Both the position numbers and the translations under genes were made by a program. Below, one piece after another: positions 3,931 to 62,340 of a DNA stretch of 64,000 nucleotides. The notes below the pieces were generated by a model that was not told the DNA's origin, ran no database searches, and saw only the letters and a program-made list of their open reading frames with translations. Every line of letters starts with the position of its first letter. The first letter of the stretch is position 1. Location: the NCBI GenBank assembly GCA_964017185.1, contig OZ024884.1:19376048-19440047 (forward strand), given 5' to 3'. This DNA is from Rugalucina vietnamica (lineage: Eukaryota; Mollusca; Bivalvia; Lucinida; Lucinidae).

Positions 3931-5480
3931 TTGTTTTTCCCCGTGCGTCTGTCCGTCTGTCTGTCTGTCCGTCACAAATCGTGTCCGCTCTATAACTTGA
4001 AAACCGTTAAAGATTTTTCAATGAAACTTGCTACACTTGTAAACCACGACAAGACGATGTGTCATGCTCAAGAACCATAACTCTAGCTTGAGTATTTTTG
4101 GAGTTATTTCCCTTTGATTATTTTCGATACAATTTCGTGTCCGCTGTATAACTTGAAAACCGTTAAAGATTTTTCAATGAAACTTGATACACTTGTAGAC
4201 CACGACGAGACAATGTGTCATGCACAAAAACCATAACTCTGGCTTGAGTATTTTTGGAGTTATTTCCCTTTGATTATTTTCGATACAATTTCGTGTCCGC
4301 TGTATAACTTGAAAACCGTTTAAGATTTTTCAATAAAACTTGGTACACTTATTGAGCATGATCAGACGATGTGTCATGCACAAGAACCATAACTCTAGCT
4401 TGAGCATTTTTGGAGTTATTTCCCTTTGATTATTTTCGATACAATTTTGTGTCCGCTGTATAACTTGAAAACCGTTAAAGATTTTTCAATGAAACTTGGT
4501 AAACTTGTAGACCACGACGAGATGATGTGTCATGCACAAGAACCATAACTCTGGCTTGAGTATTTTTGGAGTTATTTCCCTTTGATTATTTTCGATACAA
4601 TTTCGTGTCCGCTGTATAACTTGAAAACCGTTTAAGATTTTTCAATAAAACTTGGTACACTTATTGAGCATGATCAGACAATGTGTCATGCACAAGAACC
4701 ATAACTCTGGCTTGAGTATTTTATGAGTTATTTCCCTTTGATTATTTTCCATACAATTTCGTGTCCGCTTTATAACACGAAAATCGTAAGCGTTATTTCA
4801 ATGAAACTTGGTACACTTATAAAGCACGATGAGATTACGTGTCGTGCTAAAGAACCATAACTCTTGCTTTCATATCGTTGGAGTAATTTCCTTTGATTAT
4901 TTTCCATACAATTTCGTGTCCACCCTATAACTTGAAAACCGTAAGAGAAATTTCATTGAAACTTGGTACACTTATAAAGCATGATGAGACAATATAACTC
5001 TTGCTTTCATATCTTTGGAGTTATTTCCCTTTGATTATTTTTCCATACAATTTCATGTCCACTCTATAACTTGAAAACCATAAGAAATATTTCAATGAAA
5101 CTTGGTACACTTATACAGCTCGATAAGATGATGTGTCATGCTAAAGAACCATAACTCTTGCTTGCATATCTTTGGAGTTATTTCCCTTTGATTATTTTTC
5201 ATTCAATTTCGTGTCTGCTCTATAACTCAAAAACCATTAGAGATTTTTCAATGAAACATGGTACACTTATAAAGCATGATGCACAAGAATCATTACTCTT
5301 GCTTTCATATCTTTGGAGTTATTTCCCTTTGATTATTTTCCAAACACTTTCGTGCCCCCTCTATAACTTGAAAACCGTAAGAGATATTTCAATGAAACTT
5401 GGTACACTTATAAAACAGAATGACAGAATATGTGATGCACAAGAACTATAACTCTTGCTTGCATATTTTGGACATGCCCG
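3930..5480. repeat. 156-bp satellite, ten tandem copies
   Basis: Unit starts marked by CGTGTCCGCT(G/C)TATAAC occur at about 3980, 4136, 4292, 4448, 4604, 4760, 4915, 5054, 5210 and 5351: 156-bp spacing in most, with two shorter units. The unit contains AACTTGAAAACCGTTAAAGA, CATGCACAAGAACCATAACT and GGAGTTATTTCCCTTTGATT. It is preceded by a GTCTGTCTGTCTGTCTGTCC run. It has no coding potential of its own. Confidence 0.95.
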
Positions 5481-10309: not shown

Positions 10310-10440
10310 TGCACCCCCATTGCTTGTGAGAACTATATGTGCTGCTTGTGTCCCCAGGCACTGCTTATAACCGACCGACAGACCTGATTACTGGATAACC
10401 ACTCAGAAGGTCTGGGCCTGCCCAGGAAAAGTGGTTTAGT
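10310..10440 (+). repeat. R1 dispersed repeat, head half before the minisatellite
   Basis: It carries the R1 landmarks TGCTGCTTGTGTCCCCAGGC, GACCTGATTACTGGATAACC and GGCCTGCCCAGGAAAAGTGG, the last of which passes straight into the minisatellite. Confidence 0.85.
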
Positions 10441-12800
10441 CAAGAAGGCCTGAACCTGTCCAGGAAAAGTGGTTTAGTCAAGAAGGTCTGAACCTGTCCA
10501 GGAAAAGTGGTTTAGTCAAGAAGGTCTGAGCCCGCCAAGGAAAAGTGGTTTAGTCAAGAAGGTCTGAACCTGCCAAGAAAAAAATGGTTTGGTCAAAGTC
10601 TGAACCTGTCCAGGAAAAGTAGTTTAGTCAAGAAGGTCTGAGCCCGCCAAGGAAAAACGGTTTAGTCAAGAAGGTCTGAACCTGCCAAGAAAAAAATGGT
10701 TAGGTCTGAACCTGCCAAGGAAAAGTGGTTTAGTCAAGAAGGTCTGAACCTGCCAAGAAAAAAAATGGTTTGGTCAAAGTCTGAACCGGCCCAGGAAAAG
10801 TGGTTTAGTCAAGAAGGTCTGAGCCCGCCAAGGAAAAACGGTTTAGTCAAGAAGGTCTGAACCTGCCAAGAAAAAAATGGTTTGGTCAAAGTCTGAACCT
10901 CTCCAGGAAAAGTGGTTTAGTCAAGAAGGTCTGAGCCCGCCAAGGAAAAAAGGTTTAGTCAAGAAGGTCTGAACCTGCCAAGGAAAAGTGGTTTAGTCAA
11001 GAAGGTCTGAACCTGCCAAGGAAAAGTGGTTTAGTCAAGAAGGTCTGAGCCCGCCAAGGAAAAGTGGTTTAGTCAAGAAGGTCTGAGCCCGCCAAGGAAA
11101 AGTGGTTTAGTCAAGAAGGTCTGAACCTGCCAAGAAAAAAATGGTTTGGTCAAAGTCTGAACCTGTCCAGGAAAAGTGGTTTAGTCAAGAAGGTCTGAGC
11201 CCGCCAAGGAAAAATGGTTTAGTCAAGAAGGTCTGAACCTGTCCAGGAAAAATGGTTTAGTCAAGAAGGTCTGAGCCCGCCAAGGAAAAATGGTTTAGTC
11301 AAGAAGGTCTGAGCCTGCCAAGGAAAAGTGGTTTAGTCAAGAAGGTCTGAACCTGCCAAGGAAAAGTGGTTTAGTCAAGAAGGTCTGAGCCCGCCAAGGA
11401 AAAATGGTTTAGTCAAGAAGGTCTGAGCCCGCCAAGGAAAAATGGTTTAGTCAAGAAGGTCTGAACCTGCCAAGGAAAAGTGGTTTAGTCAAGAAGGTCT
11501 GAACCTGCCAAGGAAAAGTGGTTTAGTCAAGAAGGTCTGAGCCCGCCAAGGAAAAAGGGTTTAGTCAAGAAGGTCTGAGCCCGCCAAGGAAAAGAGGTTT
11601 AGTCAAGAAGGTCTGAACCTGTCCAGGAAAAGTGGTTTAGTCAAGAAGGTCTGAGCCCGCCAAGGAAAAAGGGTTTAGTCAAGAAGGTCTGAGCCCGCCA
11701 AGGAAAAGTGGTTTAGTCAAGAAGGTCTGAACCTGTCCAGGAAAAGTGGTTTAGTCAAGAAGGTCTGAGCCTGCCAAGAAAAAAATGGTTTGGCCAAAGT
11801 CTGAACCTGTCCAGGAAAAGTGGTTTAGTCAAGAAGGTCTGAACCTGTCCAGGAAAAGTGGTTTAGTCAAGAAGGTCTGAACCTGTCCAGGAAAATGGTT
11901 TAGTCAAGAAGGTCTGAGCCCGCCAAGGAAAAGTGGTTTAGTCAAGAAGGTCTGAACCTGTCCAGGAAAAGTGGTTTAGTCAAGAAGGTCTGAGCCCGCC
12001 AAGGAAAAGTGGTTTAGTCAAGAAGGTCTGAGCCCGCCAAGGAAAAAGGGTTTAGTCAAGAAGGTCTGAGCCCGCCAAGGAAAAGTGGTTTAGTCAAGAA
12101 GGTCTGAACCTGTCCAGGAAAAGTGGTTTAGTCAAGAAGGTCTGAGCCTGCCAAGAAAAAAATGGTTTGGCCAATGTCTGAACCTGTCCAGGAAAAGTGG
12201 TTTAGTCAAGAAGGTCTGAACCTGTCCAGGAAAAGTGGTTTAGTCAAGAAGGTCTGAACCTGTCCAGGAAATGTGGTTTAGTCAAGAAGGTCTGAGCCCG
12301 CCAAGGAAAAGTGGTTTAGTCAAGAAGGTCTGAACCTGTCCAGGAAAAGTGGTTTAGTCAAGAAGGTCTGAGCCTGCCAAGAAAAAAATGGTTTGGCCAA
12401 TGTCTGAACCTGTCCAGGAAAAGTGGTTTAGTCAAGAAGGTCTGAACCTGTCCAGGAAAAGTGGTTTAGTCAAGAAGGTCTGAACCTGTCCAGGAAAAGT
12501 GTTTTAGTCAAGAAGGTCTGAGCCCGCCAAGGAAAAGTGGTTTAGTCAAGAAGGTCTGAACCTGTCCAGGAAAAATGGTTTAGTCAAGAAGGTCTGAGCC
12601 CGCCAAGGAAAAATGGTTTAGTCAAGAAGGTCTGAACCTGCCAAGAAAAAAATGGTTAGGTCTGAACCTGTCCAGGAAAAGTGGTTTAGTCATGAAGATC
12701 TGATCTTGTCCAGGAAAAGTGGTTTAGTCATGAAGGTCTGAACCTGCCCAGGAAAAGTGGTTTAGTTAATGTCTGAACCTGCCCGGGAAAAGTGGTTCAG
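10390..12800 (+). repeat. 38-bp minisatellite, about 62 copies
   Basis: The consensus unit is CCAGGAAAAGTGGTTTAGTC plus AAGAAGGTCTGAACCTGT. Three variant classes alternate: CCTGTCCAGG, CCCGCCAAGG and a 36-bp form CCTGCCAAGAAAAAAATGG. Blocks containing the rare GAGCCTGCCAAG plus TTTGGCCAA variant recur near 11768, 12148 and 12372, so longer higher-order blocks were copied. The array lies inside an R1 repeat: the R1 head is at about 10310-10440 and the R1 tail at about 12770-12965. Confidence 0.97.
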
Positions 12801-12965
12801 TCAAACAATCCATTGTAGGCTTTAGTTGTTTACTTGGGTAGTTATATTTTGAAGCACATTTGGCATGTCATGGTATGTTGCATGGAAGTCCCATAAAATG
12901 AAGACAACATCCTGACACGACCAGAGCTGTTGACTGGGACGTAAAACGACAAATGAAACAAAAGA
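12770..12965 (+). repeat. R1 dispersed repeat, tail half after the minisatellite
   Basis: It carries the R1 landmarks CTTGGGTAGTTATATTTTGA, AAGTCCCATAAAATGAAGAC, CTGTTGACTGGGACGTAAA and an A-rich CAAATGAAACAAAAG end. Confidence 0.85.
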
Positions 12966-53235: not shown

Positions 53236-54120
53236 ATTTAATAAAATATAATTGTTAGATCCTTTGGAATCAGTAAAAACATTGAAAGTGAAAAGGTGGG
53301 CCATATTGTACAATTTCGGGTAATGAACCTTCATCAGTGACCCTTTATAAAACTGGCAGCGAAAGCCAGATATTATTACTGCAATTTCAAGAATTTACAC
53401 CAGTGTAGTCTTAATCAAAGACTCGTATTCCCAAAAGGGCCAAATTATCAAAATACTGTTAAGAAGATGATTCTTAACGTACAAAAAATTTGAAATACTC
53501 CAAATATTCTCACCGATCCCAAAGGATCAAAAGAAAAATATAACCTGCACTATGGATGATGTACGGGGAGACTTTTTAGGACCGCCACACGGCACAACAC
53601 CAGCTGCAGTAATAGCAAATAAAATATAATTGTTGGATCCTTTGGAATCAGTAAAAACATTGAAAGTGAAAAGGTGGGCCATATTGTACAATTTCGGGTA
53701 ATGAACCTTCATCAGTGACCCTTTATAAAACTGGCAGCGAAAGCCAGATATTATTGCTGCAATTTCAAGAATTTACACCAGTGTAGTCTTAATCAAAGAC
53801 TCATATTCCCAAAAGGGCCAAATAATCAAAATACTGTTAAGAAGATGATTCTTAACGTACTAAAAAATTGAAATACTCCAAGTATTCTCACCGATCCCAA
53901 AGGACCAAAAGAAAAATATAATCTGCACTATGGATGATGTACGGGGAGACTTTTGAGGGCCGCCACACGGCACAACACCAGCTGCAGTAATAGCAAATAA
54001 AATATAATTGTTAGATCCTTAACGTACAAAAAATTTGAAATACTCCAAATATTCTCACCGATCCCAAAGGATCAAAAGAAAAATATAATCTGCACTATGG
54101 ATAATGCACGGGGAGATGAT
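53236..54120 (+). repeat. Satellite-like repeat S, two full units plus a partial
   Basis: Units of about 380 bp begin near 53239 and 53619 and a partial one at about 54000. They are nearly identical: CAATTTCGGGTAATGAACCT, AACTGGCAGCGAAAGCCAGA and TGATGTACGGGGAGACTTTT recur at constant spacing. A stray piece (CAATTTCGGGTAATGAACCC) also occurs at 22480. Confidence 0.95.
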
Positions 54121-54464: not shown

Positions 54465-54730
54465 GTTGTCGTGAAGCAGCTTTCATTTACGCCATAACCA
54501 GTGCTGCTGTGGCTCATTCTGTGGCGCGCGCATGCGCAGATGGAAGTATATATACGTGTTCGTGCAATTATAACCTCAGACTGCCCGAGGGTAAAGACTG
54601 GGAGTGGGGTGGATGTAGTGACAATGCAAACTTTGGGAAGAAATTCTCGCGGAAGTTCGTGGACGTCATCGAGAAAGGACGAGACTTCCGGTACATGATG
54701 AATCTGCATAATAATGAAGCGGGTCGACGG
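54465..54730 (+). CDS. Wnt1: Wnt1, internal coding exon (central Wnt domain)
   Basis: The exon encodes [19 protein letters not shown], then [32 protein letters not shown] and [11 protein letters not shown]. These are the central Wnt1 blocks, with the family's conserved cysteines (GCRE, ARAC, TCSC, GGCSDN) all present. The acceptor is TTTTCTTTTCAG ending at 54464 and the donor is CGACGG/GTAGGT at 54731. The entry phase completes the Gly codon opened at 40670, and the exon leaves in phase 0, matching the exon at 59948. The intron upstream is about 13.8 kb. The exon is embedded in mobile DNA: a SINE at 54222-54368, an inverted retroelement end at 54369-54433 only about 31 bp before the acceptor, and a SINE tail and reverse-transcriptase element immediately downstream. 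Confidence 0.96.
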
Positions 54731-54802
54731 GTAGGTATTGCCTAAAAAGTAAGAACTGCTCACAAAATCATATAATCTTATTTGACATATCATTCATTTC
54801 AT

Positions 54803-54873
54803 AGAGGACCGAGAGAAGATTGGACTTAAATGTCCAACTGAGGCCACTTTAAGTGAAATCTTTATTATTATTA

Positions 54874-54912
<39 letters not shown>
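54803..54912 (+). repeat. SINE 3' fragment with TTA microsatellite
   Basis: AGAGGACCGAGAGAAGATTGG resembles the body end of the SINE at 32948 and is followed by an ATT/TTA run (54861-54911). Confidence 0.7.
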
Positions 54913-54913
<1 letters not shown>

Positions 54914-54981
54914 AACTTATTCGTTTTTGCTGCAAGCAAAGTTTGTCAACTTCAATAAACAGATTACCGTTGATCTTTTGT

Positions 54982-56402
54982 AGTGGGAATCTTTTTCTGA
55001 TTGCGCCTTTTCCTGATCTTTGCCTACTTGTACTATAGATGCAATATAGCTATACAAAATGTAGGTTTAATTCCACATCTAGGTACCTCGATGACCTTTT
55101 GAACATTGACAACCCTTATTTTGAAGGTATGGTCAATCAAATTTATCCACCTGAACTTCAGTTGAACAAAGCCAATATCTCAGATACTGAAGCCCCCTTT
55201 TTAGATCTACATCTTTCTGTTGCAAATGGATTTGTTTCTTCTAAAATTTATGATAAGCGCGATGACTTTGATTTTGATATAGTAAATTTTCCTTTTTTGG
55301 ATGGTGACGTTCCTCGTCGTGCTTCTTATGGTGTATACATTTCGCAACTTATTAGGTTTGCTAGAGTCTGCAATCATGTTACAGACTTCAACGCTCGAAA
55401 TAAATGTTTAACGGCAAAACTTCTCCAACAGGGCTATCGGTATCATAAACTTCGAAAAACATTTTCTAAATTTTATCGTAGACACTATGAATTGATTTCC
55501 AAATATAATGTTGGGTTAAAGACGCTTTTAAGTGAGGGCCTTTCGGAACCTGAATTTTATGGTGACTTGGTTTACAAATTTAAGAAACTTAAAGGAATTA
55601 ATGATTTTTCTTTTCAGTTCAGAAAAAACATAACACGTTACAGACGTATAGGTTATAACTTGAATGTTATGCGACAGTCTGCATGCTTAGTTTTTAACCC
55701 AATCATGGTTGATAACTATGCTGCCTTCTTTAATTGCACGCCGGTGGGTCGGGCGTCAGACTCTATGATGGCCCCGACATAAAGCTATTCATTTTAGTTG
55801 GTTGGGGCCGGAGCTTCTTGTCTGTTGCTTGGCCCACCGGGGTCCAACTGGTGTTTTTCTTTTGCTCCGGAGTTAGTAGGTTATTCGGCGCCCAGGGATC
55901 TCCATCGTCGGGCAGCTTACTCAGTCTGTGAGTCCTGGTTTTTGATTCATCAGGATGTTTATCATGATTTATTTGTTTGTTCTTGATGATTCATTGACTA
56001 GTTAGAGATTCACCACGAGGACCGAATAACTAACTAAATGTTATGAACCACTGCAGAAGCTGAGGGTGAGGTTATGGCCATGTAAAACCGGTTTAAGCCC
56101 GCCAGTAACTGAGTTACTGATCGTTCCAAGTCGATACTTCTGTGGTGGTTCTTTTTGTTTTATGTCTTGGTGTATGAATTTTTTTTTGTGCTGTTGGCGC
56201 CTTATGTGTGTTTTCATATTTTTAGTTAAGTTGGGGTAACTGAGTGGCCACCTATTGGGAAAATAGCTGCTCATTCGGCTTACGATATGTTTCATGGTAT
56301 AAGTACCTGATTGTTAGTTTGGTTTTTTCCCACCTCGGTTTTTGGAGTGGGAATCTTTTTCTGATTGCGCCTTTTCCTGATCTTTGCCTACTTGTACCTT
56401 TT
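54982..56402 (+). mobile_element. Retroelement piece flanked by direct copies of its end sequence
   Basis: A 52-bp sequence at 54982-55033 recurs as a direct repeat at the end of a 65-bp block at 56338-56402, enclosing a reverse-transcriptase reading frame (55039-55782) and about 550 bp of non-coding tail. The same 65-bp block is present inverted at 54369-54433. Terminal direct plus inverted repeats of this kind are known for Penelope-like elements; that assignment is inference. The element is 5'-truncated with respect to a full RT and lies inside the Wnt1 intron in the same orientation as the gene. Confidence 0.7.
55039..55782 (+). CDS. Reverse transcriptase C-terminal part (retroelement; Penelope-like suspected)
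   Basis: The 247-codon frame contains the polymerase motif RYLDDLL (YxDD class) near residue 16, followed by FLDLHLSVANG near residue 54 and YDKRDDFDFDIVNFPF, YGVYISQLIRFARVC and LLQQGYRYHKLRKTFSKFYR. This order (YxDD, FLDL, a Y.K.D segment, then a sipySQliR-type thumb motif) is that of retroelement RTs related to Penelope-like elements; the exact clade was not established. The fingers and most of the palm are missing N-terminally, and no GIY-YIG or other endonuclease domain is seen. The first Met is only the first ATG and need not be a true start. It is transposon DNA, not part of Wnt1. Confidence 0.8.
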   Translation: MQYSYTKCRFNSTSRYLDDLLNIDNPYFEGMVNQIYPPELQLNKANISDTEAPFLDLHLSVANGFVSSKIYDKRDDFDFDIVNFPFLDGDVPRRASYGVYISQLIRFARVCNHVTDFNARNKCLTAKLLQQGYRYHKLRKTFSKFYRRHYELISKYNVGLKTLLSEGLSEPEFYGDLVYKFKKLKGINDFSFQFRKNITRYRRIGYNLNVMRQSACLVFNPIMVDNYAAFFNCTPVGRASDSMMAPT

Positions 56403-57152
56403 AATAATAAAACTCTTAAAGAAACACCCATTCAAATAAAAACTAAAATCAATTTTCCCTCAGGGACACGTTTAAAAACAGCTTCATATAAGGCATTTGC
56501 ATTTTGGTATTTTTTCGAATAAATATCGAGTGCGCATATAGAGCGCATTGCTGCTACTAAATAATTGAAACATACCAAAAATCAACGGCTTGGCTAATAT
56601 AGACTGAAACATATTCGACGCCCGCTAAAGCACAACATTATTAGGCTGTCTACATAAACAAAACTGCCAAAAAATTAAGAACTTAATCTTGAAATGCAAA
56701 CTAAATTCCAATATAACGTTGACATTTTAGCTTGATATATGACAGCTAATGTAACAGGTATTTCAATAAAGTCTACGAATTAAACTGTCCTTTTATCTGA
56801 ATAATTGAAATTATCTCATTTTTATGTCTTAACACTTCAGCTCTAGTTAGCGTTATTTCATTCAGGGTACATTCCCTTCCACTGACTTAACCATGATCGC
56901 CAATAAACGTCGGGTTCTCAACCTTGTGCGAAATACCTGACATTTTGATTTGCAAAGGTCAAACGTGTTATACCCGTCTAATAATATGTTAGACGGGTAC
57001 TCCGTCTGATTCTGACATACAAATTTCGCTGTAAATGTGACATAAAACCAGTCGTTTCTACGTCAATAAAGACATTAAGGAGGAGATGCTGTGTCATTAG
57101 TACCAAGTGACACTGTGCCACATGATCTCCCTATACGACGACCATCTTGTGC
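56403..57152. other. Intron sequence, nothing recognised
   Basis: A 20-bp palindrome at 56973-57002 (ACCCGTCTAATA / TATTAGACGGGT) is the only structure noticed. Confidence 0.5.
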
Positions 57153-57437
57153 ATTACGAAAACTTGCCCATGTAATATATGGAGAATTTTTTTCAGTAGC
57201 AAAAACTGAAAATTTCATCAGAAAATTTTTGATGTTTTTCTTATTTTTGCTCAAAACATAGATTGTGGGTACACGTTAGAACCATAGAACCGCCTCGGCG
57301 AGGCGGTTCTAACGAGTACCCACAATCTATGTTTTGGAGCAAAAATAAGAAAAATAGGTATACCCACTCATACCCCAGCTTTGCTATATAAAAGTTGGGT
57401 TCAAAGGGGTATACATTACACGGACATGTTTGCATGA
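57153..57437 (+). mobile_element. MITE-A copy 9
   Basis: ATTACGAAAACTTGCCCATG to ACATGTTTGCATGATG; hairpin arms intact with a small repeat (AGAACCATAGAACCGCC); TATATAAAAG present. Confidence 0.9.
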
Positions 57438-57779
57438 TGGTATGCCAGATTTATTCAATGTTGGTATAGTTTATGTCTCAGGCAGGACTTTCTTTTCGCT
57501 TCCATCTAAATTTAATATAAAGCTGCGTTTTGTAGAAGTACTAACTATAGTAGGATTCGTCTTCTACACCAGTGACAAACGAGTAAACTTGCATGTCCTT
57601 TAGATCAGAAAATTAGCCATCAGTCGGCGCGTAAGTCTAATTGAAACGTTGACAGTTACTACATTTAACTTTCTGACATATACTGTCTATCTAGATTAAA
57701 AGCAACAACATATGACTTAACGTCATTCTTCTACACTGCTTGTACCATAAACATTTCGAATGCATTTTGTAATATTAAC

Positions 57780-57965
57780 AGAATACTTGTGGTTGCAATA
57801 TGCCGTATTGGTTTGCTTGGGTGGTAACATTTACTAGTATGAAGCACATTTTGATTGTCATGTCAACCAAATGTTGGGTAAAAGTCCCATAAAGTGGAGG
57901 CAATGTCCCGATATGACCACTGCTGTTGATTGGGACGTAAAACATCAATTTAAACAAACAAAAGC
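57780..57965 (+). repeat. R1 dispersed repeat, tail half
   Basis: TTGCTTGGGTGGTAACATTT, AAGTCCCATAAAGTGGAGGC, CTGTTGATTGGGACGTAAAA and CAATTTAAACAAACAAAA. Confidence 0.85.
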
Positions 57966-58486
57966 ATGATGTAATTGTTATGCTTGGCAATGTTAAAATA
58001 TCGATGAGCTAAGGTTTGAAACGCAGAGATACTAACATGTACGTTTGGATTTTATGGCCCAGACACAACTAAAATAAAGCCTTTAACACTGTTTCAGAGC
58101 ACCAGTTTGTCTGAATTCTTCCCACAGATAACATTACAATCAGGCAATATCAATACCAAATCAAATAACCATTAAATAGCAATTAGATAATGAGGTTTTG
58201 GAAACAAACATAAAACTAGGTCGAATATGTATGCCAAATGTTAACAACCAGCTGCTTTCTGAAGAGTGCACTAATAAACTTTGTTTCATAAAGTGTCTCA
58301 GTAATGTGTGGTCAGCCATTACACACGGTTGTAATGACGTAAATGTCGTAAACTCACACATTCCGCACTTATTTTGAACGAATAACGCGTATTTTTGAAC
58401 GGAATAACTATTGTTAAGAGATCCTTACTTCTAAAATATGCCGACAACAGGTGGTTTGCAAGCACTTCCTTCGTAAAGGCGTAAAG

Positions 58487-59096
58487 CCTGAGCTACACGA
58501 GAGATACAAGATGTATACATCTTGATCTATACAACTTTTGGTTCATAGACCTTGTAGAGCTACATGATAGACCTAGGTGTATGGACCTTTGTACTTTCTT
58601 CATCACAAATTTGTAACAATTGTTTTAATTCAAGAACACAAATAACAATAAAAAGCTCACTTTCATGTTACTTTATTTTCAAAACATTCCTGAATTTTAG
58701 CCAGTGCTTTGTGCCTCGCATCCTTCTTGGAATAATCTACCAAACTTACATCCAAAAGAATGGACATTTTCTTTCAACTCCTCCAACCCCCAGTATGCCA
58801 AAACTATTTATTGTGATGCAGTTTTTTTTCAGTCATGATGTTTGTTACATAATTGTTAACAAACAACCCTTTCACCCCATTCCCTGGAATTGCCAGTGAG
58901 TCATTCAGATAATGAAAAAGATGTATAAGTCAAGGTGTATGGAATAGGACATGTTCTATTCTCCAAAAAGGTTCATGAAGCTCCAAAAAGGTCTATGGAC
59001 CAAAGCTTTAAGGTAGGCTAGACGGAAGACCTTTGCTCTATACACCAAGGTCTATAGAGCAAAGATCTTCCGTGTAGCCTACACTTAACTTTATGT
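58487..59096. mobile_element. Possible MITE with imperfect TIRs
   Basis: AAGCCTGAGCTACACGAGAG at the left is matched by CTTCCGTGTAGCCTACACTT at the right (inverted). The right end also contains a hairpin at 59013-59083 (GTAGGCTAGACGGAAGACC / GATCTTCCGTGTAGCCTAC). Confidence 0.6.
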
Positions 59097-59419
59097 CCTA
59101 TTTGTCTGTATTAAAACTGTACCAGATTCCTCTTTACAATGTTTACATTTCGTTCCCTGGCTAATATTTAATATTTCATGACGCTTACTTTTGGAAGGCA
59201 AACATATATTATGTATAAACTTAATTTGTCACTATTTTGACAACGTTTGAAATAACATTTTCCTTTTTAGATATATATTGCCCCCTAGTTTTGGTTATTG
59301 TTGAATTTGTTCATCAGTACCGCTGCAGTACAACTTGTATGGTCAATATAATGTTGATACTGTCAGCTTTCCTTACATGATGATGTTTCGTTAGCATCAA
59401 CAGAGAGAAAGCTACTTAT

Positions 59420-59645
59420 CAATAGTGTCATGATTGTATGTTAGGGAGAAGCGCCATCAAATCATCTTGTATAAGATTACCACTACGATTGGCATATTCT
59501 CGAAGATACATTTTAATGTAATTAAACGAAATAGTTGAACTTTTTCTGCACTTAAAGAAAGAAATGACTCATGCATGTGACGAAACAAAAACGTAGGGTT
59601 TGAGAATAACCCTCTTTGAATTTGATTTCATTAAAAAATATTATT
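59420..59645 (+). pseudogene. Possible one or two older remnants of the Wnt1 thumb exon
   Basis: Bases 59424-59432 (AGTGTCATG) and onward can be lined up with the copy at 59797 through GTATGT, CATCAAA and the tail ATTCTCGAAGATA...TTTTAATG at about 59497-59516. A second weaker match (TTTTCTGCA...GAAATGAC, about 59541-59570, and ACCCTCTTTGAATTTGA near 59611) suggests a further deleted copy. No reading frame survives. This was done by eye, so it is tentative. Confidence 0.4.
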
Positions 59646-59655
59646 GATTTTTCAA

Positions 59656-59781
59656 GCGATGACCCGCAAGTGGTCGTGCCATGGTATGTCTTGGAGCTGC
59701 TTTATCAAAACAGGCTGGATGCGGCTACCCCTCTTTAGATATGTTTGGGACATTCTCAAGATAAATTTTGATTTTATATAA
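59656..59781 (+). pseudogene. Decayed tandem copy of Wnt1 thumb exon (second copy)
   Basis: It reads AMTRKWSCHGMSWSC, then [20 protein letters not shown], and runs into a stop at 59779. It starts 144 bp upstream of the equivalent point in the copy at 59797. It shares with that copy both cysteine losses (TGG at 59671, GGC at 59713) and additionally has Gly to Trp (59692) beside the Ser. The AT-rich stretch after the exon (TTTTGATTTTATATAA) matches the stretches after the nearer copy, so the repeat unit includes intron sequence. There is no usable donor. The shared losses imply the two copies descend from one already-damaged duplicate. Confidence 0.86.
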
Positions 59782-59796
59782 TTCTTCTTCTGTTAG

Positions 59797-59916
59797 AAGG
59801 AAATGGACTACGAGTGGAAGTGTCATGGTATGTCTGAGAGCTGCACCGTCAAAACAGGTTGGATGAGGCCACCCCTCTTAAGACAAGTTGGGGATATTCT
59901 CAAAGATAAGTTTTGA
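59797..59916 (+). pseudogene. Decayed tandem copy of Wnt1 thumb exon (nearer copy)
   Basis: In the frame of the true exon it reads [16 protein letters not shown], then [10 protein letters not shown] and GDILKDKF followed by a stop at 59914. It lies 160 bp upstream of the equivalent point in the real exon. A pyrimidine tract and TAG at 59794-59796 form a possible acceptor in the same phase 0 as the real exon, but there is no donor before the stop. Relative to the real exon it has Cys to Trp (TGG at 59815), Gly to Glu beside the lipidated Ser (GAG at 59836) and Cys to Gly (GGT at 59857). The loss of two family-invariant cysteines and the missing donor argue for a dead duplicate rather than an alternative exon. 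Confidence 0.88.
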
Positions 59917-59947
59917 TTTAATTAAATATTATTTTTGCTGTTTTCAG

Positions 59948-60098
59948 CATGTGAAAAAAGAGATGACCCGCGAGTGTAAGTGCCATGGTATGTCAGGGAG
60001 TTGCACCATTAAAACATGTTGGATGAGGTTACCCCTCTTCCGACAAGTAGGGGACATTCTCAAAGATAGATTCGATGGTGCATCCAGAGTTCTTCCAG
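59948..60098 (+). CDS. Wnt1: Wnt1, coding exon with lipid-attachment hairpin
   Basis: The exon reads [19 protein letters not shown], then [35 protein letters not shown] is the tip of the Wnt 'thumb' hairpin; in the family the first Ser of this motif (codon 59993-59995 here) receives palmitoleate from Porcupine, needed for secretion and Frizzled binding. All four cysteines of the ECKCHG...SGSC...KTCW block are present. The acceptor is GCTGTTTTCAG ending at 59947 (phase 0, fits the donor at 54731) and the donor is TTCCAG/GTAGTG at 60099 (phase 1). HV after NEAGR matches the order in Drosophila wingless (RAHV). Decayed tandem copies of this exon lie directly upstream at 59656-59781 and 59797-59916. 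Confidence 0.96.
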
Positions 60099-61170
60099 GT
60101 AGTGACTTTTCTTCCAATTACTGCATATTTTAAGCGATTAATGTTAGCTTAAAACACTTTTTTTCCAATCCTAAGCAAAACATTTTTCATAGGTTTATAA
60201 AGTTATTTTTCAGTTATTTCTCCTTTGAATTATAAACTTCCAGCTTTTTTGAGGAATACTTGTATTGTAGTAACATTCATTGTCACAATTTGTTTTTCAA
60301 ATAATTTATTTATTTATTTTGTTCATGCATGGTATTTCAACATGAATCCACATCTCTCCTGATACGTCCTAAGTTGAAGAACTAACATTTATAGGCTGTG
60401 CGAAAAAAAAACGTGATGGTAGTTTGTTTTTTCTTATTTTTATTTAGGCTTGAATTCTTCTGTTCCGCATGGAAAATCTTCAGATTCTAAAAGTGAGGAA
60501 TTTTATGTGTTGTTTTCTTTTAATGTTTTGTTTGCTTTTTTCTCTAACGAATTTGATGTTGAACTGTGGTTTGGTTTGGTTGCCTGTAGAGCATTGTTGA
60601 TGCACGTGCATTTAACATTTAGGTCATACAAATAAATCATGCATGTATGCCTGACTTGGTAAAATTACTTGAGCGTTTACAAGACCACTGGTCAGTTTGT
60701 TTTAAATTTCTGGCTGACATATTCAAAACGCACAATACTTGTTTTGCTAGATGTTTTTGTTTCACAGAGAAGCACTTTGTTTTCGTTACAACATTTTTTA
60801 TCTGCTGCCCACGTGATTTTACAATAGAATTATTCACGTTAGCAATAATTATTATTTTGTTAAGGTTATTTTATCTTCTTGACTATAAAAAAGTTCCCGC
60901 AAACAACAAATGGTACAAAAGTATCAGTGTCGTCTTTTTCATCTTTGACATAATCATTTGAGGACTGTTTCATAGAATTATCGGCCTATTTAAGAATTCT
61001 GAAAAATGGAAAACATATATCTGCGCAGGCGTTTGCGTATATGGCGCCGCATGCCAGCTAGTGTGACGGCTTATAGTAGAATCCATAATTAGTGAACTAT
61101 TAAAATTTCATATAAACACATTCTATCATATAACTAACAGCATGGTAATCAGATGATGCTTAAATCTTCC
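60099..61170. other. Wnt1 intron, nothing recognised
   Basis: AT-rich; the short frames have no coding character. Confidence 0.5.
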
Positions 61171-61447
61171 ATTACGAAAACTCGCCCATGCAATTATACA
61201 GAGATTTTTAAAGTTGTAAAAACGAAAATTTTCAGCAGAAAAAATATGATATTTATAATATTTTTGTTCAAAACATACATTGTGGGTACACGTTAGAACC
61301 GCCTCGCCGAGGCGGTTCTAACGAGTACCCACAATGTATGTTTTGGATCAAAAATAAGAAAAATAGGTATGCCCCTGCATACCCCAGTTATGCTGTATAA
61401 AAGTGGGGTTCAAGGGGGTATACATTTCACGAACATGTTTTCCTGAT
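61171..61447 (+). mobile_element. MITE-A copy 10
   Basis: ATTACGAAAACTCGCCCATG to CATGTTTTCCTGATG; perfect hairpin (GTTAGAACCGCCTCGCCGAG); TATA reduced to GCTGTATAAAAGTGGGG. Confidence 0.9.
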
Positions 61448-62313: not shown

Positions 62314-62340
62314 GTAACGAAGGAAGCAATGATGCAGAAG
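62314..62340 (+). CDS. Wnt1: Wnt1 micro-exon, 27 nt
   Basis: The sequence between an acceptor (TTTATTCAG ending at 62313) and a good donor (GCAGAAG/GTCAGT at 62341) is 27 nt. It enters in phase 1, so with the last base of the 59948 exon it reads G-NEGSNDAE and leaves in phase 1. Human WNT1 reads GNRGSNRAS at the same place, directly after RVLY, so both content and phase fit. This is the variable linker before the C-terminal cysteine-rich domain. The C-terminal exon with the CNCTFHWCC-type motif was sought to base 64000 and not found. Confidence is limited by the tiny size; a spliced transcript would settle it. Confidence 0.75.

Follow-up and report, generated by a model that had tools for sequence, protein, structure and literature searches.

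The window analysed here is a stretch of 64,000 nucleotides of Rugalucina vietnamica DNA, which a genome-wide DNA search with one of its exons places on contig C16; the assembly comprises 47 contigs and 1.09 Gb. It carries wnt-domain exons, one of which encodes the lipid hairpin CxCHGxSGSC and marks the gene as a member of the Wnt family. Immediately upstream of this exon lies a head-to-tail array of partial copies of it. These features, all on the forward (+) strand and numbered from the first letter of the window, are as follows.

54465..54730 (+): upstream Wnt exon of 266 nt; donor gtaggt; phase-0 splice to the lipid-hairpin exon; boundaries set by reading the sequence
59406..59556 (+): copy A, more diverged than the other units, with several small indels and an in-register TAA at the junction
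59557..59652 (+): putative remnant unit B; not significant, with resemblance to the unit confined to its intron-like tail
59653..59796 (+): copy c1; 35 codons in the register of the exon, then a 1-nt deletion, a stop and an intron-like tail; PF00110, 30.7 bits
59797..59947 (+): copy c2; 39 open codons, closed by a TGA at 59914-59916; acceptor-like TTCTTCTTCTGTTAG immediately upstream; PF00110, 38.7 bits
59948..60098 (+): lipid-hairpin exon of 151 nt, the last unit of the array; phase 0 in and phase 1 out; donor gtagtg

Against the Pfam wnt profile (PF00110, cut-off 20.3), the lipid-hairpin exon scores 72.9 bits and the segment 54467-54730 of the upstream exon scores 108.4 bits. All 11 distinct PDB sequences matched by the lipid-hairpin exon are Wnt proteins by name (E<=5e-6, at a search cut-off of E<=0.001), and the last Gly codon of this exon is split with the next exon. 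We take the gene to be Wnt1, a putative subtype that follows the original prediction for this locus rather than a gene tree. It belongs to a group of Pfam wnt matches at 19.30-19.65 Mb of C16.

Several other elements surround these exons. Two tiny phase-1 exons, 60448-60492 (45 nt) and 62314-62340 (27 nt), predicted from splice signals and frame, apparently split the variable linker of this Wnt. An open frame in the intron (55039-55779, 247 aa) may be retroelement-like in appearance, and it has no Pfam match at E<=1. Closely similar palindromic elements of the form GTGGGTACACGTTAGAACC...GGTTCTAACGAGTACCCAC lie in the intron before the exon (57248-57355) and in an intron after it (61265-61362), and both look like a small inverted-repeat mobile element. 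There is also an inverted repeat at 58997-59098, with 50-nt arms that are 80% complementary and separated by 2 nt.

The original prediction held that two clear copies of the lipid-hairpin exon precede it, along with one or two fainter ones. Self-similarity above background is indeed present: direct repeats of 112 nt start at 59653, 59797 and 59957, with spacings of 144 and 160 nt, and the middle repeat shares 73% and 82% identity with the two that flank it. The two clear copies, c1 and c2, both exceed the Pfam cut-off. As for the fainter copies, one stands and the other does not. Copy A is clear, because local alignment of 59380-59560 against 300 dinucleotide shuffles yields z values of 17.3 with the exon, 18.0 with c2 and 9.8 with c1, and because an nhmmer profile built without A recovers 59424-59527 at E 3.7e-11. 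Independent detection covers that stretch only; when A is included in the profile, its match spans 59406-59555. The proposed second unit, remnant B at about 59557-59652, is unsupported, with z values of 2.1-3.2 and a profile score of 0.8 bits on the tail only. The spacing between A and c1 would fit one more unit. Farther upstream, three stretches of 58500-59400 give z<2, and a search of the whole window with the unit profile yields no further significant match besides the array. The array upstream of the exon thus comprises three clear partial copies (A, c1 and c2) arranged head to tail. We also considered and rejected another genomic source for the copies, as a genome-wide DNA search with the exon lists no place outside this locus, where it recovers the exon itself, c2 and c1; this search missed copy A and is of limited reach.

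The copies share a distinctive shape. Together they represent about codons 4-42 of the 50 codons of the exon plus an intron tail, and they include neither the final ~25 nt of the exon nor its donor. Both c1 and c2 run from about codon 4 to codon 38-42 and then enter intron-like tails that are alike; the tail of c2 (59917-59947) doubles as the end of the intron that precedes the real exon. The clear copies had been predicted to keep frame through most of the exon, and they do so for 35 codons in c1 and 39 in c2. At the same aligned codon c2 has TGA and A has TAA, and c1 carries its 1-nt deletion just before this point, followed by a stop. Because the copies lack the exon end and donor and contain stops, they were probably born truncated. 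Their one common junction fits a single founding duplication that was later amplified, in which case truncation probably dates back to the founding copy itself.

The copies and the exon differ from one another by 19-42% over the aligned exon part. When a codon model is fitted to the exon, c1 and c2 (34 codons), omega is 0.066 on the exon branch and 0.80 on the c1 and c2 branches, and the latter value does not differ from 1 in a likelihood ratio test (2dlnL 0.20, p = 0.66). The terminal copy branches therefore fit neutral drift. A clock model dates the duplication to 0.19-0.27 neutral changes per site ago, or to 0.21-0.26 with A included. These results, taken with the repeat array and the profile matches, bear out the earlier suggestion of a local amplification that decayed, except that it had been called recent: the copies are old. 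At a neutral rate of the order of a few times 10^-9 changes per site per year, the age of the array would be tens of millions of years.

The stem from which c1 and c2 descend is less clear, and two results run counter to a wholly neutral history. Both copies keep register without indels over 105-120 nt, which in neutral simulations at 0.19 changes per site, with an assumed indel:substitution ratio of 0.12, has a probability of 0.026 for c2 and 0.036 for c1; for stops alone, the probabilities are 0.34 and 0.37, respectively. In the clock model, a constrained c1/c2 stem is better than a neutral stem by 1.0, 1.0 and 0.7 lnL, a margin too small to decide. The branching order, on which the originally proposed serial origin from one damaged duplicate depends, is similarly equivocal. 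The grouping of c1 with c2 has a bootstrap of 39%; in the nine columns where these two agree and differ from the exon, A matches the exon in three and the copies in three; and A is joined to c2 by six columns and to c1 by two, such that the informative columns conflict.

The array was described in the original prediction as unexpected inside a Wnt gene. For 76 exon matches (36 Wnt and 40 myosin-head), we searched as much as 600 nt of flanking sequence in either direction for copies, using profile-match limits as exon limits, which are not exact. The genome has at least 37 Pfam wnt matches; the Wnt set consists of 36 of the 37 listed, and the 37th is copy c2 itself. The myosin set (40 of 91 matches) consists of the first 30 and 10 from lower in the list, chosen blind to their flanks. 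At E<=1e-3, the only threshold at which the exon-versus-other-locus null was run, a partial local copy accompanies 14 of the 76 exons versus 7 of 228 controls. At E<=1e-7, edge copies are found at nine of the 76 exons (3/36 Wnt, 6/40 myosin), or at 8/75 when the Wnt1 exon that prompted the survey is excluded.

These edge copies obey a simple rule. Among the 10 edges at E<=1e-7, all five acceptor-side copies represent the earlier part of the exon and all five donor-side copies the later part, and no copy covers an entire exon match. The Wnt1 array follows the same rule, with upstream copies of the earlier exon part and one intact exon left. Five exons have weaker matches only (E 1e-7 to 1e-3), and two of them obey the rule; an exception is myosin exon L055, whose later part is copied upstream, and the weaker Wnt matches at L013 and L025 correspond to the middle or later part of the exon. 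A rule restricted to acceptors, which the first three Wnt cases would have fit, was rejected because myosin exons also present donor-side cases and the strict count is 5 to 5. Cases elsewhere in the genome include the following.

C16:19470695-19470982: neighbouring Wnt6-like exon (L010); upstream copy of its 5' part and intron tail, 83% identical over 60 nt
C14:1004400-1007700, reverse complement 874-1538: Wnt exon ladder (L018) of upstream units; exon start at 1539
Myosin exons L031 and L053: acceptor-side partial copies
Myosin exons L031, L032, L042, L059 and L062: donor-side partial copies
C10:15533131-15534957, reverse strand (-): kinesin gene with seven matches, two of them overlapping, to domain positions ~148-213; five contain stops

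The copies at L010, in a presumed Wnt6-like gene, occupy positions 4153-4418 of the reverse complement of C16:19467400-19475400, and a second, fainter upstream copy there is not significant alone. In the L018 ladder, an exon-only search returns seven rows at E<=0.01, six of which start at a TTAG acceptor and match the first 23-46 nt of the exon. The myosin edge copies (L031, L032, L042, L053, L059 and L062) are about 75-92% identical. The kinesin case consists of protein-level matches only, from a search with 133 kinesin matches, and points the same way as the exon survey.

When 240-nt tiles of mostly non-coding DNA were examined, 75 of 427 had a local copy at E<=1e-7: 38/180 from the window, with the Wnt1 exons and array left out, and 30/187 from Wnt loci and 7/60 from myosin flanks, both unmasked for exons. 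Since these surroundings carry local copies at least as often as exons do, exons are not enriched for them. With edge copies at nine of the 76 exons, two of these in other Wnt genes, and with local copies at least as frequent in the tiles, the earlier view that such copies are unexpected inside a Wnt gene is not supported for this genome. The window itself contains 31 rows of local direct repeats at offsets of 40-600, two of which are the Wnt1 array; loci L001-L003, which repeat the window, were left out of this listing. Such repeats cover 14.1% of the window bases, evaluated in 3.3-kb pieces, and none of 10 mononucleotide-shuffled pieces has any. The largest array spans 2.4 kb (10405-12804); the smallest offsets of the arrays at 3979-5472, 10405-12804 and 53240-54116 are 156, 188 and 167, respectively. 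At 30 myosin loci, repeats within 600 nt cover a mean of 4.6% of the exon match. This genome abounds in local tandem duplications.

Taken together, these observations are most consistent with the hypothesis that genome-wide local tandem duplication produced the array as a by-product that has no function and has decayed, a passenger kept since one intact exon remains. The same process is evident at many other loci of this genome. We assign this explanation a probability of about 90%. Specifically, a segment extending from approximately the last 30 nt of the intron to approximately codon 42 of the exon would have been duplicated head to tail, the unit would then have been amplified to at least three upstream copies, perhaps by unequal exchange or slippage, and the upstream copies would subsequently have drifted. 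The upstream copies would lack a donor and run into a stop because the duplicated piece ended inside the exon. Given that the last unit was still joined to the remainder of the exon, splicing and the protein would have been preserved, and so the event could survive. Both this order of events and the absence of copy expression are inferred.

Perhaps the array instead has a role in splicing. Aberrant inclusion was raised in the original prediction, and inclusion of c2 would bring in a stop codon. As predicted, the nearer copy is preceded by a phase-0 acceptor-like AG, which ends at 59796 and is accompanied by a pyrimidine tract. If the spliceosome sometimes used this site, the exon would become 59797-60098 and, with c2 open as far as the TGA at 59914, would carry a stop 182 nt ahead of the donor. 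Such a message would either be degraded or encode a Wnt protein that ends after the lipid hairpin; in this manner the array would tune Wnt1 output. With splice-site frequency tables, and with the acceptor at 59948 and the donors at 54730 and 60098 as the sole references for the copy sites, the 59797 site scores 6.1 bits and ranks 16th among 259 AG sites in 54800-60098. The true acceptor is higher, at 9.5 bits and rank 2, and the score at 59797 is not distinctive, since 15 of the 259 sites exceed it. Furthermore, similar copies adjoin unrelated exons. A decoy-acceptor role for the array and its consequences for the message are possible but unlikely.

Other splice signals in the region were scored with the same tables. 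The true donors have 9.6 bits (54730) and 6.1 bits (60098), and the best donor-like sites near the copy ends fall below the latter: copy A has 3.5 bits at 59517, and c2 has -5.4 at 59909. The exon-like part of c2 contains CAG/GTTGGA (5.3 bits), and c1, c2 and the real exon have in common ATG/GTATGT (6.94 bits), which derives from the Gly-Met codons. In the real exon (59985-59993) this site outscores the true donor (6.94 versus 6.09), so the hairpin codons are predicted to hold a cryptic donor. Use of the copies as a terminal exon was rejected as well: 59391-60110 is without AATAAA, and ATTAAA, which occurs at 59521, 59630, 59921 and, within the real exon, 60008, is not distinctive.

The replacements described for the clear copies are also present. 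Both c1 and c2 have Cys to Trp and Cys to Gly changes, and the Gly after the lipidated Ser has been replaced by Glu in c2 and by Trp in c1. By their distance from the lipidated Ser209, the two cysteines correspond to Cys203 and Cys217 of Wnt3a, which we take to be partners in one disulfide. By post hoc arithmetic, about 0.4% of random codon pairs would place both shared replacements in one disulfide pair, and we regard the paired loss as a curiosity. Among nearby Wnt3a residues, Ser209, Lys215, Thr216 and Trp218 are named in PMC8316347. A composite explanation, wherein c2 is a working decoy whose products are bound for nonsense-mediated decay or are Wnt1 proteins truncated at the hairpin, and wherein the ancestor of c1 and c2 was once selected and lost both halves of the disulfide together, seems to us likewise unlikely.

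A still less probable explanation is that the copies are, or once were, mutually exclusive lipid-hairpin exons that yield Wnt1 isoforms lacking the outer disulfide and bearing an altered residue after the lipidated Ser. The preserved register of c1 and c2, the slightly better fit of a constrained stem and the loss of two presumably paired cysteines would all agree with such exons. However, c2 and A stop at the same place, c1 is frameshifted, the donor-like sites near the copy ends (3.5 and -5.4 bits) are weaker than the true donor (6.1), and the terminal branches look neutral, all of which makes this proposal very doubtful. An assembly artefact can essentially be dismissed, because although tandem repeats are hard to assemble, the 19-42% difference among the copies and the exon is too much for one mis-joined exon and parallel arrays exist on other chromosome-sized contigs.

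Clusters of mutually exclusive exons, as in Dscam, consist of a row of similar exon-like units in one intron, and the Wnt1 array resembles them to this extent. Unlike those clusters, in which each unit has an acceptor and a donor of compatible phase, the Wnt1 copies have no matching donors, contain stops (c2 and A) or a frameshift (c1), and have drifted on their terminal branches, where the omega of 0.80 over 34 codons is not different from 1 and thus gives no sign of purifying selection. A better description is partial, or edge, tandem exon duplication, as the head-to-tail copies comprise part of the exon and its adjoining intron. The partial duplications of PMC12343006 likewise involve exon-like sequence across an exon/intron edge that is unannotated or degenerate, and such events are reported there in more genes than full-exon duplications. 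The present case differs in that several serial copies form an array, and abundance in this genome is only sampled and with another tool. The tandem exon duplications of PMC9013439 likewise include homologues that sit in an intron and match an adjacent exon of their own gene, but that work sought expressed exons, whereas the Wnt1 copies are without the donor of the exon. The same paper gives the exonic bases with a homologue at >=80% identity as about 2% in human and 0.08% in fly, with which our 4.6% of the myosin exon match, obtained by another method, is only roughly comparable. Among the literature matches listed, no title concerns exon copies inside Wnt1 or such arrays in molluscs, which is not proof of absence.

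As a story about Wnt genes, the array would seem to carry little weight: one intact lipid-attachment exon is kept, and the copies are without sign of use. What may be unusual is the abundance of edge copies, sampled here in two gene families. In this genome, an exon edge is often included in a short local tandem duplication, and a whole exon is left beside broken edge copies; when the piece covers one edge, the remaining whole exon lets the gene survive while the extra copies decay. With edge copies this abundant, many exon look-alikes will turn up in gene prediction and profile searches, as with c2, which is itself a match in the genome-wide Pfam wnt search. These edge copies also offer natural material for studying how the splicing machinery passes over duplicates of its acceptors and donors that lie close by.
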